Below are positions 1,468 through 8,650 of a DNA stretch of 34,978 bases, one piece after another. Below the pieces are notes generated by a model, which saw only the letters and a program-made list of their open reading frames with translations, did not search any database and was not told the origin of the DNA. Source of the stretch: Candidatus Enterousia excrementavium. Its GTDB lineage: Bacteria; Pseudomonadota; Alphaproteobacteria; Rs-D84. The stretch is taken from contig JADINE010000004.1 of assembly GCA_017694175.1 (NCBI GenBank), positions 1 to 34,978 on the forward strand. The letters run 5' to 3'. Position numbers and translations under genes: made by a program. The stretch's first letter is position 1; each line of letters opens with the position of its first letter.

Positions 1468-2418
1468 ATGGCACCAAAAGTATCTGTTATTATTGCGAAT
1501 TATAACAATGCCAAATATTTACCAGATTGTTTGCGCAGCGTTGCGACACAGTCTTTTTCTGATTTCGAATGCATTGTTGTGGACGATGGTTCAACTGATG
1601 ATTCGGCAAAAATAATTCGAAAATTTGCACGCAAAGACGGACGATTTGTACCTGTGTTTCAGAAAAATGCCGGGGCATCTGCTGCGCGCAATCGCGGTCT
1701 GGATATGGCGCGCGGGGAATACATTGCGTTTTTAGATTCTGATGATTGTTTTTGTCCGGATGCATTGCTTATCATGTATAACCTGATTACGCAAAATAAC
1801 GCAGACCTGGTTGGGGGTGGCGGTGCGCTTGTAATGGATGATTTCAAGTTATCCGATGGTCACACGCAAAATTTCATAAATCCTCCGTTTCGTGTTTATA
1901 TGAATACAATCCCTGCATTAAAGCATATTGCCACGTTGGGTAATAATTACAGATTCGTGTGGGTATGGCGCCGAATGTTTCGTCGTGATGTTATTGGTGA
2001 AACGCGTTTTGATACGAATTTATACCCAGGCGAAGACACTTGTTTTATTTTGGAAGTAATGCCGCGTGCAACCAAAATTGTGGAAACGCCGGCTATGGTT
2101 GTATTTCACAGGTCTGCGCCAACGGCGATATCTGCGGCAGTGTTTAATCAGAAAACGTTTGCATATATAACCCCTACGATGCGCCGGTTACGTTGGATAA
2201 TGGATACAATGTATCCAGCAAATTTCAGCGCATGGTTTTACAAATATTATATGGAACTGGTGATAAATGAAACAATTTGTCGCGCCATGAAATATGGTCG
2301 ATTGCGGCACCAAGTTGCAGATCATCTGCGGCCGATATATGGCACACGTATTTTGCCAACTAAATATTTGCGGTGGCCAAAGCGTTTGATTTTTTGGTTG
2401 TTTATGAAGGTATTTTAA
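1468..2418 (+). CDS. Family 2 glycosyltransferase
   Basis: VSVIIANYNNAKYLPDCLRSVATQSFSDFECIVVDDGSTDDS...FLDSDD is a GT2 signature. ATG at 1468 is the preferred start within the 1447 ORF. Confidence 0.93.
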   Translation: MAPKVSVIIANYNNAKYLPDCLRSVATQSFSDFECIVVDDGSTDDSAKIIRKFARKDGRFVPVFQKNAGASAARNRGLDMARGEYIAFLDSDDCFCPDALLIMYNLITQNNADLVGGGGALVMDDFKLSDGHTQNFINPPFRVYMNTIPALKHIATLGNNYRFVWVWRRMFRRDVIGETRFDTNLYPGEDTCFILEVMPRATKIVETPAMVVFHRSAPTAISAAVFNQKTFAYITPTMRRLRWIMDTMYPANFSAWFYKYYMELVINETICRAMKYGRLRHQVADHLRPIYGTRILPTKYLRWPKRLIFWLFMKVF

Positions 2419-2419
2419 C

Positions 2420-3469
2420 ATGAAGTTATCGATTATTGTTCCGTGTTATAACGTTGCTCCATATCTGGAACGTGGGTTACGCAGTTTATCCAATCAAACA
2501 CTGCGCGATGATTTCGAGATTATTTGCATTGACGATGCATCCACAGATGACACATTGGCGATATTAAATATGTGGGCTCAACGCGATTTGCGTGTACGTG
2601 TTTTGAAAAATAAAAAGAACAAAGGTGTTGCCGCATCGCGTAATCGGGGTTTGGACATGGCGACCGGCGAATATATCGGTTTTATGGACCCAGATGATTA
2701 TGTTGACAGTGATTTTTTTGAACGGTTGGTAAACACCGCCGATGCCCAGAAATCCCAGGCCGCGTGTGGACAATTATGCGTCATAGAGGTTACCGGTAAA
2801 AAACACAAAGACCCTTATCGCAGTGTTACTGAATTGCGCAAAACGTTGCACAATTTCAAATATCACTATACTGCGATATACCGTCGCGATTTTATAAACG
2901 CACATAATATCAGATATCCAAATTTGTCCATTAACGAAGACAGCGTTTTTGAAACCATGGTAAAATGCGCAATGACGACAAATTTGCCTTTGGTATGTGG
3001 CACGTACTATTATTATTGCAGACGCATGGAATCGTTAAATGCAGATTGGTGGCCTGAATCAAAAATCAAAGAATCTGTGACAGGTGTTGAAACAATTATT
3101 GATATTTATAACAACACCCCAGTTACCATGCGAGATTATATATGCGGCGCATACGGATACTTTAATTATTTACGTGATGTTACTTTAATAAAGAACACAA
3201 AAACGAAAATATTTGTTGCTTCCAATATGTGTCGAATTTTCAAGAAAATGAAATATAAACAAAAACTGGGCACAGAAAACACCCCCCTGTACCTGGCGCT
3301 ATTAAACGATGACCCAAACGGCGTAATTGATGTATTGAAAGCACAGAAATGGTATACGCGCACATATAAATTATTTGGGCGCATCAAATTCTTGACTGTT
3401 GCATTTACGCGTACACGGCGTGACATCCGTCTTTTTGGCATATTAATTTATCGTATGAATTTAACCTGA
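2420..3469 (+). CDS. Family 2 glycosyltransferase
   Basis: LSIIVPCYNVAPYLERGLRSLSNQTL...DDASTDDT...FMDPDDYV. Confidence 0.93.
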   Translation: MKLSIIVPCYNVAPYLERGLRSLSNQTLRDDFEIICIDDASTDDTLAILNMWAQRDLRVRVLKNKKNKGVAASRNRGLDMATGEYIGFMDPDDYVDSDFFERLVNTADAQKSQAACGQLCVIEVTGKKHKDPYRSVTELRKTLHNFKYHYTAIYRRDFINAHNIRYPNLSINEDSVFETMVKCAMTTNLPLVCGTYYYYCRRMESLNADWWPESKIKESVTGVETIIDIYNNTPVTMRDYICGAYGYFNYLRDVTLIKNTKTKIFVASNMCRIFKKMKYKQKLGTENTPLYLALLNDDPNGVIDVLKAQKWYTRTYKLFGRIKFLTVAFTRTRRDIRLFGILIYRMNLT

Positions 3470-3499
3470 TAAAAACACCGGCAAATGCCGGTATTTTTT
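3469..3499 (+). terminator. Rho-independent terminator (hairpin also usable by the minus-strand gene at 3506)
   Basis: Same accggcaaatgccggt hairpin and T run; 31 bp identical to 649-679. Confidence 0.85.
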
Positions 3500-3505
3500 T
3501 ATTAT

Positions 3506-3700
3506 TTAAATTGTGTTTAATGGCCGGCGGACTAAATTCATAAATAAAATTAATTGCAGATTTGTTGGGCGCACAATGCCACGAACTATGTTTTGGTATC
3601 CGCGTTCGTTTGTATCAAACGTATTGCACATTTCCAACACAGGAATATTGCACTCGCAGCGAATTTTTTCTATTTCCTGGCCCAGTGATAACTTTGTCAT
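3506..3700 (-). CDS. Small XRE/HTH-like protein (64 aa)
   Basis: MTKLSLGQEIEKIRCECNIPVLEMCNTFDTNERGYQNIVRGIVRPTNLQL fits the XRE HTH pattern (GxxI..R...I.v.e....f...Y..I.rG...Pt). Bounded by terminators. Confidence 0.55.
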   Translation of the reverse strand: MTKLSLGQEIEKIRCECNIPVLEMCNTFDTNERGYQNIVRGIVRPTNLQLILFMNLVRRPLNTI

Positions 3701-3726
3701 TTTGCACCCCACGCTTGTTATGCAAC

Positions 3727-3754
3727 AAAAAACCACTGGAATAAATTCAAGTGG
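3727..3754 (-). terminator. Intrinsic terminator of a minus-strand leader/ncRNA
   Basis: Minus strand reads CCACTtGAATTTATTCcAGTGG followed by TTTTTT. Confidence 0.7.
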
Positions 3755-3892
3755 TTGGAGGATACAAACTATAATAGAGTATAGCGGGCTTATTCAACAT
3801 ATTCACCGCCCTCCAACCAAGAGTTGGAGATATTTCAATTACATAATTGCTCTATTGGGGTTTGTATGCCCCGCAACGGAACGCCCGCTGCG
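3727..3892 (-). ncRNA. Candidate structured RNA or 5' leader (about 166 nt), unidentified class
   Basis: Upstream -35 TTGCAT (3922-3927), 17-nt spacer, -10 TATAAT (3899-3904), and an intrinsic terminator at 3727-3754. Multiple perfect complementary segments in between. Confidence 0.55.
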
Positions 3893-3898
3893 CCAGGA

Positions 3899-3927
3899 AT
3901 TATAACACGGAAATTTTGCAAATGCAA
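3899..3927 (-). promoter_or_regulatory. Sigma70-like promoter for the candidate RNA
   Basis: TTGCAT-N17-TATAAT on the minus strand. Confidence 0.6.
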
Positions 3928-3982
3928 ACAGTGGCGGCACTTTTTCAATCTGTTTTTACAGTTGCAAAATTACGCCGATAAT

Positions 3983-4010
3983 AAAAAAAGCCGGCATTTG
4001 CCGGCCTTTT
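3983..4010 (-). terminator. Terminator of guaC
   Basis: gccggcaaatgccggc hairpin followed by TTTTTTT on the minus strand. Confidence 0.8.
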
Positions 4011-5102
4011 TTATTCGCCAAACACAGTATTTAATTGCGTATTTACCCGGTAAAAAGTTGTGCATTTTGAAACATCTTTTAACCGGCGTGCCCCGATATA
4101 GGTCATATACGATCGCAGCCCACCCAAAATATCCTGGTTCATTTTGTCGATGGAACCGCGCAGGGGCACTTCTACAACGCGGCCTTCGCTGGCGCGATAT
4201 TTGGGCATGCCGTGATAGTGCTTGTTTTGTGCATACTCAGACGACATTCCGTAAAACACTTTGAATTGTTTTGTTTCGATAACTTGCTTTCCGGTTTTTT
4301 CATCGATTTGATTAGTGATAAATTTTCTTTCGATAATATCGCCGGCGGCTTCGGCGCACCCAGCGTAAAACCCGCCCATCATTACAAAATCAGCCCCTGC
4401 GCCAAACGCTTTGCAGATGTCGCCAATATGCACCACGCCGCCATCACTGCAAATCATGCCGCCAATTCCGTGGGCAGTATCGGCGCATTCGAATATAGTC
4501 GACAATTGTGGCCGGCCAACGCCAGTAATTCTGCGTGTAATGCATGCGCTGCCACTGCCGATGCCGCATTTAACAATATCTGCGCCGGATAAAATTAAAT
4601 CTTCCACCAATTCCGCAGTAACTGCATTACCAACCATAAGCAGTATATCAGGGAATTTTTGCCGCATTTTGATAACCAAATCTTTCACCCGTGGGATATA
4701 TGCGTTCGGCACATCGATACAAATATTGCGGCACTTATCAGGATATTGCGTTAATATTGTTTCGATTTTTTCGTAATCTTCGTCCCGCAGCCCCATGGAC
4801 AAAAACACATAATCGCGGCAATCATTGGTTGTTATGAATTTTATTAAATCTTCCAACGGATAGTGCTTGTGCAGGCAACAAAACATTTTATTTTGCATCA
4901 TGTGCAACGCCACTTCAAAAGTACCCACGGTTGCCATATTTGCGGAAATAATTCCTGTGCCAACGATGCGGCGTGGGCACCATTTGAATTTGTATTCACG
5001 TGTAACTTCTACTTCTGATCTGGAATTAATAAAAGATCGTTTAGGTTTGACCAGAACATCTTTGAAATCCAGTTCTGTTTGTTCATAAATTTTCATACCC
5101 AA
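4011..5102 (-). CDS. guaC: GMP reductase (IMPDH/GMPR family)
   Basis: FKDVLVKPKRS, GTGIISANMATVGTFEVA, LSGADIVKCGIGSGSACITRRITGVGRPQLS, SDGGVV and KVFYGMSS match GuaC. Confidence 0.88.
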   Translation of the reverse strand: MGMKIYEQTELDFKDVLVKPKRSFINSRSEVEVTREYKFKWCPRRIVGTGIISANMATVGTFEVALHMMQNKMFCCLHKHYPLEDLIKFITTNDCRDYVFLSMGLRDEDYEKIETILTQYPDKCRNICIDVPNAYIPRVKDLVIKMRQKFPDILLMVGNAVTAELVEDLILSGADIVKCGIGSGSACITRRITGVGRPQLSTIFECADTAHGIGGMICSDGGVVHIGDICKAFGAGADFVMMGGFYAGCAEAAGDIIERKFITNQIDEKTGKQVIETKQFKVFYGMSSEYAQNKHYHGMPKYRASEGRVVEVPLRGSIDKMNQDILGGLRSYMTYIGARRLKDVSKCTTFYRVNTQLNTVFGE

Positions 5103-7624: not shown

Positions 7625-8650
7625 TTAAAACGCCAGGTTCAAACGAACACCAACTTCGGCTTTGACATCTGTGCCATTTTGAGAGTTAGCATGCGCTTCG
7701 TCGAATGTGTATTCGCCGTACACAGCAACCTGGACATTGTCTGTCAATTGATTTGCCGCAGACAGTGTTACGATGTATTCATCGAACCCATCGTTCATGT
7801 CGGACAGTTGGGCAATTAAACCATTGACCAATGCCGGGGCGGCCGGATGTGCGCCAGCGGGCAATTCTGTAGCCAAGCTTTTAACACCATTGTCGGCGTG
7901 GTGATTATATTTGAATCCCGCACCGAATGACCAACGGTCGTTTAACTGATAAAACGCGTTCAAACCAAAGTTGATTTCTGTTGTGGATTTCAGGTTAACA
8001 GAAATCTCACTTGGGATACCCAATGTAGTCACTGCTACTGGCCCCATGGGGTCCATTGGAACCGTCAACCCGGCTACATCAATCACGTTGTTGCTGTTGC
8101 CGAATGTTTTCAGAACTTCCACAAACGCGCTGGTGGTCAATTTGCTCCAAGTTTTACCAAAGCGAACACCGGCGTCAAAGCCCCAGCGACCGTTTGAATA
8201 GTTGTCATACTGGAAACCACGTTCCAATGTGTACGCGCCACGCATTTTGTTAATGCCGCCCAAATGAGCATCTGCATAAACATCCAATACGATATCGTCG
8301 GACGTTTCAACCGCACGCCAAATCAGACCCAAACGGCCGTGATTCATACCCTTGCGATCAATATCAGCGTCGTGTGTATACGCGAACGCACCGCGAATTG
8401 CGATACGGTCCGTGATACCCAGGCCTAAATCTTCCTGGATACGCCAAATTGGGAATTCTGTTGCGCCATCGTGACCCTTTTGAACATGGGCATCTGAACT
8501 GTCCGCAACCTTTAACATCAATCCGCCCGATGTTTTCGAATAGAATTCGCCAGCAGTCGGCATGTACAACGGATTTTCCAAATTAGCAGCCATCGCAGGT
8601 GTTGCCAAAACAGATGCAGCAACCGCCAATTTTAAACTTTTTTTCATCAT
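7625..8650 (-). CDS. Outer-membrane beta-barrel protein
   Basis: Signal peptide MMKKSLKLAVAASVLATPAMAA. Alternating amphipathic strands and a C-terminal aromatic (VRLNLAF). SD aaggag. Confidence 0.8.
   Translation of the reverse strand: MMKKSLKLAVAASVLATPAMAANLENPLYMPTAGEFYSKTSGGLMLKVADSSDAHVQKGHDGATEFPIWRIQEDLGLGITDRIAIRGAFAYTHDADIDRKGMNHGRLGLIWRAVETSDDIVLDVYADAHLGGINKMRGAYTLERGFQYDNYSNGRWGFDAGVRFGKTWSKLTTSAFVEVLKTFGNSNNVIDVAGLTVPMDPMGPVAVTTLGIPSEISVNLKSTTEINFGLNAFYQLNDRWSFGAGFKYNHHADNGVKSLATELPAGAHPAAPALVNGLIAQLSDMNDGFDEYIVTLSAANQLTDNVQVAVYGEYTFDEAHANSQNGTDVKAEVGVRLNLAF

Follow-up and report, generated by a model that had tools for sequence, protein, structure and literature searches.

A structured RNA leader as a probable C4-type, locus-specific transcription attenuator in Candidatus Enterousia excrementavium

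C4, the antisense RNA of phages P1 and P7 (C4/c4-a1b1; RF01695, RF03163, clan CL00128), serves phage P1 for immunity and is released by an RNase P cut at its GGW start; its a' segment confers specificity and its b' segment covers the ribosome-binding site (PMC5320573), and c4-a1b1 is a recognised motif (PMC2864571). The phage P1 record annotates, in order, a1, b1, c4, a2, b2 and icd, and in its sequence the promoter is followed by a first hairpin, a hairpin with a1 in its loop, b1, a spacer hairpin and then the core. The C4-like “Group 1” sRNAs of Acinetobacter baumannii are reported to arise by processing of longer transcripts, with a cut at GGW (PMC5320573). sRNA-Xcc1 (RF02221), an integron-cassette RNA of Xanthomonas, is described as lying ahead of symE in such cassettes (PMC12444791); it stands outside the C4 clan in Rfam 15, and the one paper naming both in the literature searched lists C4 and sRNA-Xcc1 as separate families (PMC12189769).

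The stretch of DNA analysed here (“the window,” 34,978 nt) comes from Candidatus Enterousia excrementavium, a member of Rs-D84, an uncultured alphaproteobacterial order of the gut whose genomes are close to 1 Mb in size (PMC12306168). Its 854-kb genome carries, at 3727-3892 on the minus strand of the window, an RNA of about 166 nt between promoter and terminator end (Table 1), which is likely to be an antisense-RNA leader of the C4 type, now a chromosomal, locus-specific transcription attenuator. An earlier note on this DNA had proposed a structured RNA bounded by a promoter, TTGCAT-N17-TATAAT, and a terminator, CCACT..AGTGG-TTTTTT; both are in place, and every pairing that it listed exists in the sequence. 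The predicted fold of 3727-3893 (minus strand) has an energy of -62.1 kcal/mol (z = -6.0 against 200 dinucleotide shuffles). A perfect TATAAT is the best -10 box in 50 of 98 non-redundant copies (shuffles, 4.6%), and 69 have the box 5-7 nt ahead of the P1 hairpin.

Table 1. Features of the RNA and its neighborhood, in window coordinates.
Feature	Position	Strand	Parts and pairing	Basis or remark
sigma-70-type promoter	3899..3927	-	-35 TTGCAT 3922-3927, N17, -10 TATAAT 3899-3904	sequence and conservation
P1, first hairpin	3872..3892	-	3885-3892/3872-3879	covariation; at predicted transcription start
P2, a1 hairpin	3857..3872	-	stem 3869-3872/3857-3860, a1 in loop	far set z = 8.4
a1 (ATACAAAC)	3860..3867	-	partner a' 3762-3769, pseudoknot PK1	covariation
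b1 (AATAGAG)	3850..3856	-	partner b' 3773-3779, helix P3	covariation
P4, spacer hairpin	3836..3849	-	3845-3849/3836-3840	covariation
P5, hairpin alternative to P8	3811..3829	-	3823-3829/3811-3817	covariation
P8, core closing helix	3753..3818	-	3810-3818 with 3753-3761; begins GGT	covariation
P6, hairpin with conserved GAAUAUAUUGAAUAA-type loop	3784..3809	-		covariation
P7, CTAT/ATAG hairpin	3769..3784	-	3781-3784/3769-3772; loop 3773-3780 contains b'	covariation
a' (GTTTGTAT)	3762..3769	-	between P7 and P8 3' strand	covariation
intrinsic terminator	3727..3756	-	3750-3756/3731-3737 and T run; overlaps P8	sequence and covariation
downstream gene, 64-aa small HTH-like protein	3506..3700	-	start at 3700, Shine-Dalgarno GGGG 3707-3710	
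upstream neighbor guaC (GMP reductase-like)	4011..5102	-		without functional link

Covariation was scored structure-blind, by mutual information with average-product correction, in an alignment of 101 non-redundant copies. The top-ranked pairs fall almost entirely inside P1, PK1 (a1:a'), P3 (b1:b'), P4, P5, P6, P7, P8 and the terminator. Because the model used to fit the alignment includes P1, PK1, P3, P4, P5, P6 and the terminator, it favors these; P2, P7 and P8 are part of neither of the two covariance models described below. In PK1, 98.7% of cells pair and 200 are doubly changed (at most 73 in shuffles); in P3, 97% pair and 348 are doubly changed (at most 130 in shuffles; z = 39.9). The terminator helix also covaries among the copies. 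P5 has 46 doubly changed cells and P8 has 39, with at most 16 in shuffles for each: the two helices share one strand, yet compensatory changes occur in both, e.g., GGTTGGAGT/ACTCCAACC and GGCAGGAGG/CCTCCTGCC, bearing out the earlier suggestion of an attenuator-type leader with exclusive folds beside a terminator. In far copies (those left out of model building), comparison of own with permuted partners gives z = 24.7 for PK1, 12.8 for P8, 10.5 for P7 and 8.4 for P2; these covariation scores come from permutation, not R-scape, and ignore phylogeny. On such scores covariation is very strong, alternative helices included: the helices already listed in the earlier note, here PK1, P3, P4 and P5, and its exclusive 9-bp pairing, here P8, all covary in about 100 copies. 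The additional pseudoknot that it drew between 3783-3789 and 3883-3889 is rejected, since the 5' side is an arm of the P1 hairpin, which covaries with its own partner.

As far as sequence comparison can, these results show two mutually exclusive folds and a locus-private code. Judged from their sequences, the pairing segments are self-complementary codes private to each copy: a' and b' match a1 and b1 of their own RNA, not those of other copies. The genome designated G010 has 36 distinct b' segments in 36 copies, and 17 of its 1260 non-self pairings approach self strength.

In energy models the two competing states are a core closed by P8, and P5 together with the terminator. P8 beats P5 in 99% of the 101 copies (-15.4 vs -11.1 kcal/mol), yet P5 plus terminator, at -21.3 kcal/mol with nested energy parameters that ignore pseudoknots, is stronger than P8, so that the outcome should hinge on folding order and on the a1:a' and b1:b' pairings. 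In the window RNA the 3' strand of P8 runs on into the terminator, overlapping its 5' arm; because this strand is also the terminator base, P8 and the full terminator are mutually exclusive.

Comparison of the copies shows a common layout. Transcription has its predicted start at P1, and the transcript carries a1 in a hairpin loop, followed by b1. The core, closed by stem P8 and containing hairpins P6 and P7, exposes a' and b', which pair with a1 and b1 by the locus-private code; the 5' strand of P8 has two possible partners, a segment preceding it (P5) and the 3' strand (P8). The sequence of events proposed is as follows. If P5 and the terminator form, the RNA would end after about 166 nt and the gene would be off; this may be the favored default, on nested energies that ignore pseudoknots. 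If the core is instead closed via P8 and held by a1:a' and b1:b', the terminator would be weakened and the downstream gene transcribed. By analogy with phage P1, RNase P probably excises the core at the GGU start of P8; of 104 copies, 80 have a P8 that starts with GGU, and RCY follows it in most, which would fit continued cleavage by RNase P. Either the terminated RNA or the core once released could then bind a1 and b1 of new transcripts from the same locus, a trans step by which each locus would exert negative feedback (“immunity”) on itself, with no cross-talk from one copy to another.

The RNA is widespread among relatives of the window's source. BLAST with the sequence of the RNA found six copies in its own genome, and copies in 21 of the 40 genomes searched. 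A covariance model built from 24 copies (R1) raised the count to 17 in the same genome, with 27 in genome G003 and 47 in G010, and had matches in 49 of 59 genomes; a second model, built from 61 copies (R2), found the RNA in 135 of 142 sampled genomes of order Rs-D84. Across the class, R2 matched 18 of 240 genomes, all of 0.9-2.2 Mb, 15 of them outside the window's genus and in 11 other families. A sample of 299 Pseudomonadota yielded Enterousia plus one marginal match (E = 7.6e-4), and no others. Tandem arrays also occur: one locus (L139, G010:C3:142500-147300) has about eight copies at 1600-3212, mostly without ORFs between them, ahead of an HTH gene, and smaller arrays are found at L060, L070, L136 and L124. 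On a contig filed as viral (L239, IMGVR_UViG_3300024303_004416), which is probably bacterial DNA, a leader at 8443-8614 precedes an ABC-transporter gene.

In copies of the family, the T run is followed by a Shine-Dalgarno sequence and start codon, mostly within 15-35 nt. Among downstream proteins of at least 120 aa in the near set, 48 of 55 (87%) look exported by a crude signal-peptide rule, vs 23 of 91 background ORFs (25%; Fisher p = 9e-14). A Pfam search of 119 downstream proteins recognised HTH families in about a dozen and, in others, outer-membrane families (OMP_b-brl, Opacity, OmpA, OmpW, Surface_Ag_2, Porin_2, autotransporter), and revealed no common metabolic theme. The 64-aa ORF that the earlier note had called XRE-like holds up as an ORF, with its start codon and GGGG Shine-Dalgarno sequence; the XRE label is not borne out by Pfam, in which the protein has no match. 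It belongs to a small family (60-84 aa) whose leader-linked members are 25-43% identical, and true HTH_3/HTH_31 proteins lie behind other copies.

The gene upstream, guaC, is an accidental neighbor, since the element is missing from the site downstream of guaC in 20 of 21 named relatives; the purine ligand guessed from its presence is not supported. The one relative with an element at this site is the closest, and there the gene behind the RNA is a different HTH gene; its RNA is about 66-70% identical to that of the window, and its guaC 83%. When the slots after guaC are compared (window 3506-4010, L086 4045-4600), both hold a leader and an HTH gene, of differing HTH families: from the sequences this looks like module exchange, and leader-plus-gene units seem to come and go as modules. 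A GCCGGC-type hairpin with T runs lies between guaC and the leader (window 3982-4016), and a hairpin resembling it, at window 3477-3492, ends the convergent gene.

sRNA-Xcc1 shares the Enterousia core layout and forms a bridge to C4. The RF02221 model (cut-off 53 bits) matches two far copies, both alphaproteobacterial, at 56.2 bits (L173) and 51.7 bits; a copy in the window's own genome (C31:9451-9543), also found by R1, scores 44.8 bits, below cut-off, and the window copy itself has no match. The match spans exactly P8-P6-P7-a'-P8', and the Enterousia RNA has the stem with two inner hairpins and the AAUA..GAAUA internal loop of that family. Each of the 28 RF02221 loci examined has, 5' of the part that Rfam models, a stretch complementary to a', in most cases within a hairpin loop, and no more than 12 nt after it one complementary to b'; the joint a1/b1 score for these loci is 38.2, vs 20.2 +/- 2.2 for permuted partners. 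R2 finds four of the 28 unaided, each model thereby matching loci of the other. By the shared a1/b1 half and the cross-matches, RF02221 and the Enterousia RNA have a single architecture, of which the Rfam RF02221 model covers only the 3' half.

In five phages (L240-L244: Aaphi23, 4316, Mcat15, Rac-SA53 and Pmp3), RF02221 lies directly upstream of a gene in antirepressor position, i.e., an antirepressor (ant), KilA-N or hypothetical gene, with a second a/b copy ahead of the start codon and b2 at or near the ribosome-binding site, an arrangement like that of the C4 antisense RNA of phage P1. Shiga-toxin-converting phages also gave BLAST matches. GC-rich alphaproteobacterial RF02221 loci (L207, L219-L221, L208, L213, L215, L238) likewise have second a/b copies before the start codon; in several of them b2 overlaps the Shine-Dalgarno sequence, which would be a translational version of the switch. 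At two further loci (L227, L234) RF02221 leaders precede DNA methyltransferase-like genes, suggesting a role in restriction-modification control.

Other readings of the window RNA have to be weighed against this one. The earlier note had pointed towards a metabolite riboswitch; in its fullest form this would be a new class, with the pseudoknotted core as aptamer, the internal loop of P6 as pocket, and P5, P8 and the terminator as platform. Exclusive folds adjoining a terminator, a strongly conserved P6 loop, and an RNA that leads many genes are all what such a switch would offer, but the layout equals that of C4, a1 and b1 included, its codes are private, the AAUA..GAAUA loop is also present in phage RNAs ahead of antirepressors, the downstream genes share no metabolic theme, the RNA matches no known class in Rfam 15, and a ligand is unnecessary as an explanation; we consider the riboswitch improbable. 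As to particular ligands, GGDEF and RelA/SpoT domains were looked for in genomes G000, G003, G010 and G067 and not found, so that these genomes seem to be without c-di-GMP and ppGpp synthesis and neither compound is likely to be a ligand in Enterousia. The observations in the earlier note therefore stand, and its interpretation does so in part, as attenuator but not as metabolite or purine riboswitch. Rfam 15, searched with the window at gathering and permissive thresholds, gave nothing over the RNA on its strand; 6S RNA, tmRNA, T-box and attC were dropped as identities for want of Rfam matches and of any such features, and since the architecture found accounts for the covariation.

Another possibility is that the copies are independent trans-acting sRNAs with distant mRNAs as targets, the downstream gene being incidental. 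They do have their own promoter and terminator, some stand in ORF-less tandem arrays (L139, L060, L070, L136), and their relative sRNA-Xcc1 is filed as trans-acting; this is nevertheless unlikely, given a start codon with Shine-Dalgarno sequence that mostly lies at 15-35 nt, a strong functional bias of the gene that it starts, and a' and b' segments that fit their own a1 and b1 rather than those of other copies. A mobile DNA element (a cassette, MITE or attC-like site), folded for recombination rather than for RNA regulation, would be dispersed, multi-copy and at times tandem, as this element is, and could explain a guaC site occupied in one of 21 named relatives, with a different gene. Promoter, directional terminator and fixed distance to the start codon nonetheless indicate an RNA, and the Enterousia sequence had no match in the phage and plasmid collections searched, making this reading very improbable.

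The preferred reading, a C4-type leader turned attenuator, starts from the order of parts, which is the same in C4/c4-a1b1 and in the Enterousia RNA: both open with a promoter and a first hairpin, continue with a hairpin loop that holds a1, with b1 and with a spacer hairpin, and then have a core of closing stem and two hairpins, with b' in the loop of the second and a' ahead of the closing 3' strand. The core features are seen by covariation in Enterousia, and a1 and b1 lie upstream and are complementary to a' and b'. P8, P6 and P7 correspond to C4 stems P1, P2 and P3, and the Enterousia P1 hairpin has the position that the first hairpin takes in the c4 leader of phage P1. A GGW start (GGT in P8) and RCC end are common to both, and phage P1 likewise has, 5' of its core, a strand (ACGCCC) able to pair with the closing stem.

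Some parts of C4 are missing or faint. RF01695 and RF03163 have no match at Rfam cut-off on the window or in its relatives, a b2 target at the downstream ribosome-binding site is absent in Enterousia (z = 1.0), and an a2-like signal is faint (z = 4.0, mean gain 0.65 units vs more than 7 for a1), so that a2 appears at most vestigial. Nor is the target an antirepressor (ant/icd). Given the Rfam cut-offs and the lack of b2, the Enterousia RNA is not filed here as a member of C4 or sRNA-Xcc1.

It is about an even bet that a phage immunity RNA has been domesticated and multiplied into private-code attenuators, 17 to 47 per genome of about 1 Mb, that gate surface proteins and small regulators, each silencing only itself, and that a single superfamily of RNAs acting both in cis and in trans has sRNA-Xcc1 and C4 among its branches. 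If so, genome-reduced, uncultured Alphaproteobacteria would have a large RNA-based regulon, of which no description was found in the literature searched; a phage immunity RNA would have been turned into a switch that works through a terminator and has dozens of orthogonal codes, the private codes forming a natural set of non-cross-reacting attenuators; and sRNA-Xcc1, at present regarded as a trans-acting virulence sRNA or ORF-less cassette RNA, would be recast as the core of a C4-type leader.

Among known systems, the A. baumannii “Group 1” sRNAs resemble the Enterousia RNA in being multi-copy chromosomal relatives of C4; they are reported without a defined cis gene and match the Rfam C4 motif, whereas the Enterousia RNA does not. 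In contrast to C4 of P1/P7, the Enterousia RNA has many private-code copies per genome, and precedes genes for exported and small HTH proteins rather than icd/ant. Where C4 has its ribosome-site targets, and where some RF02221 members have a2/b2 copies that overlap the Shine-Dalgarno sequence, the Enterousia RNA has an intrinsic terminator overlapping the closing stem.
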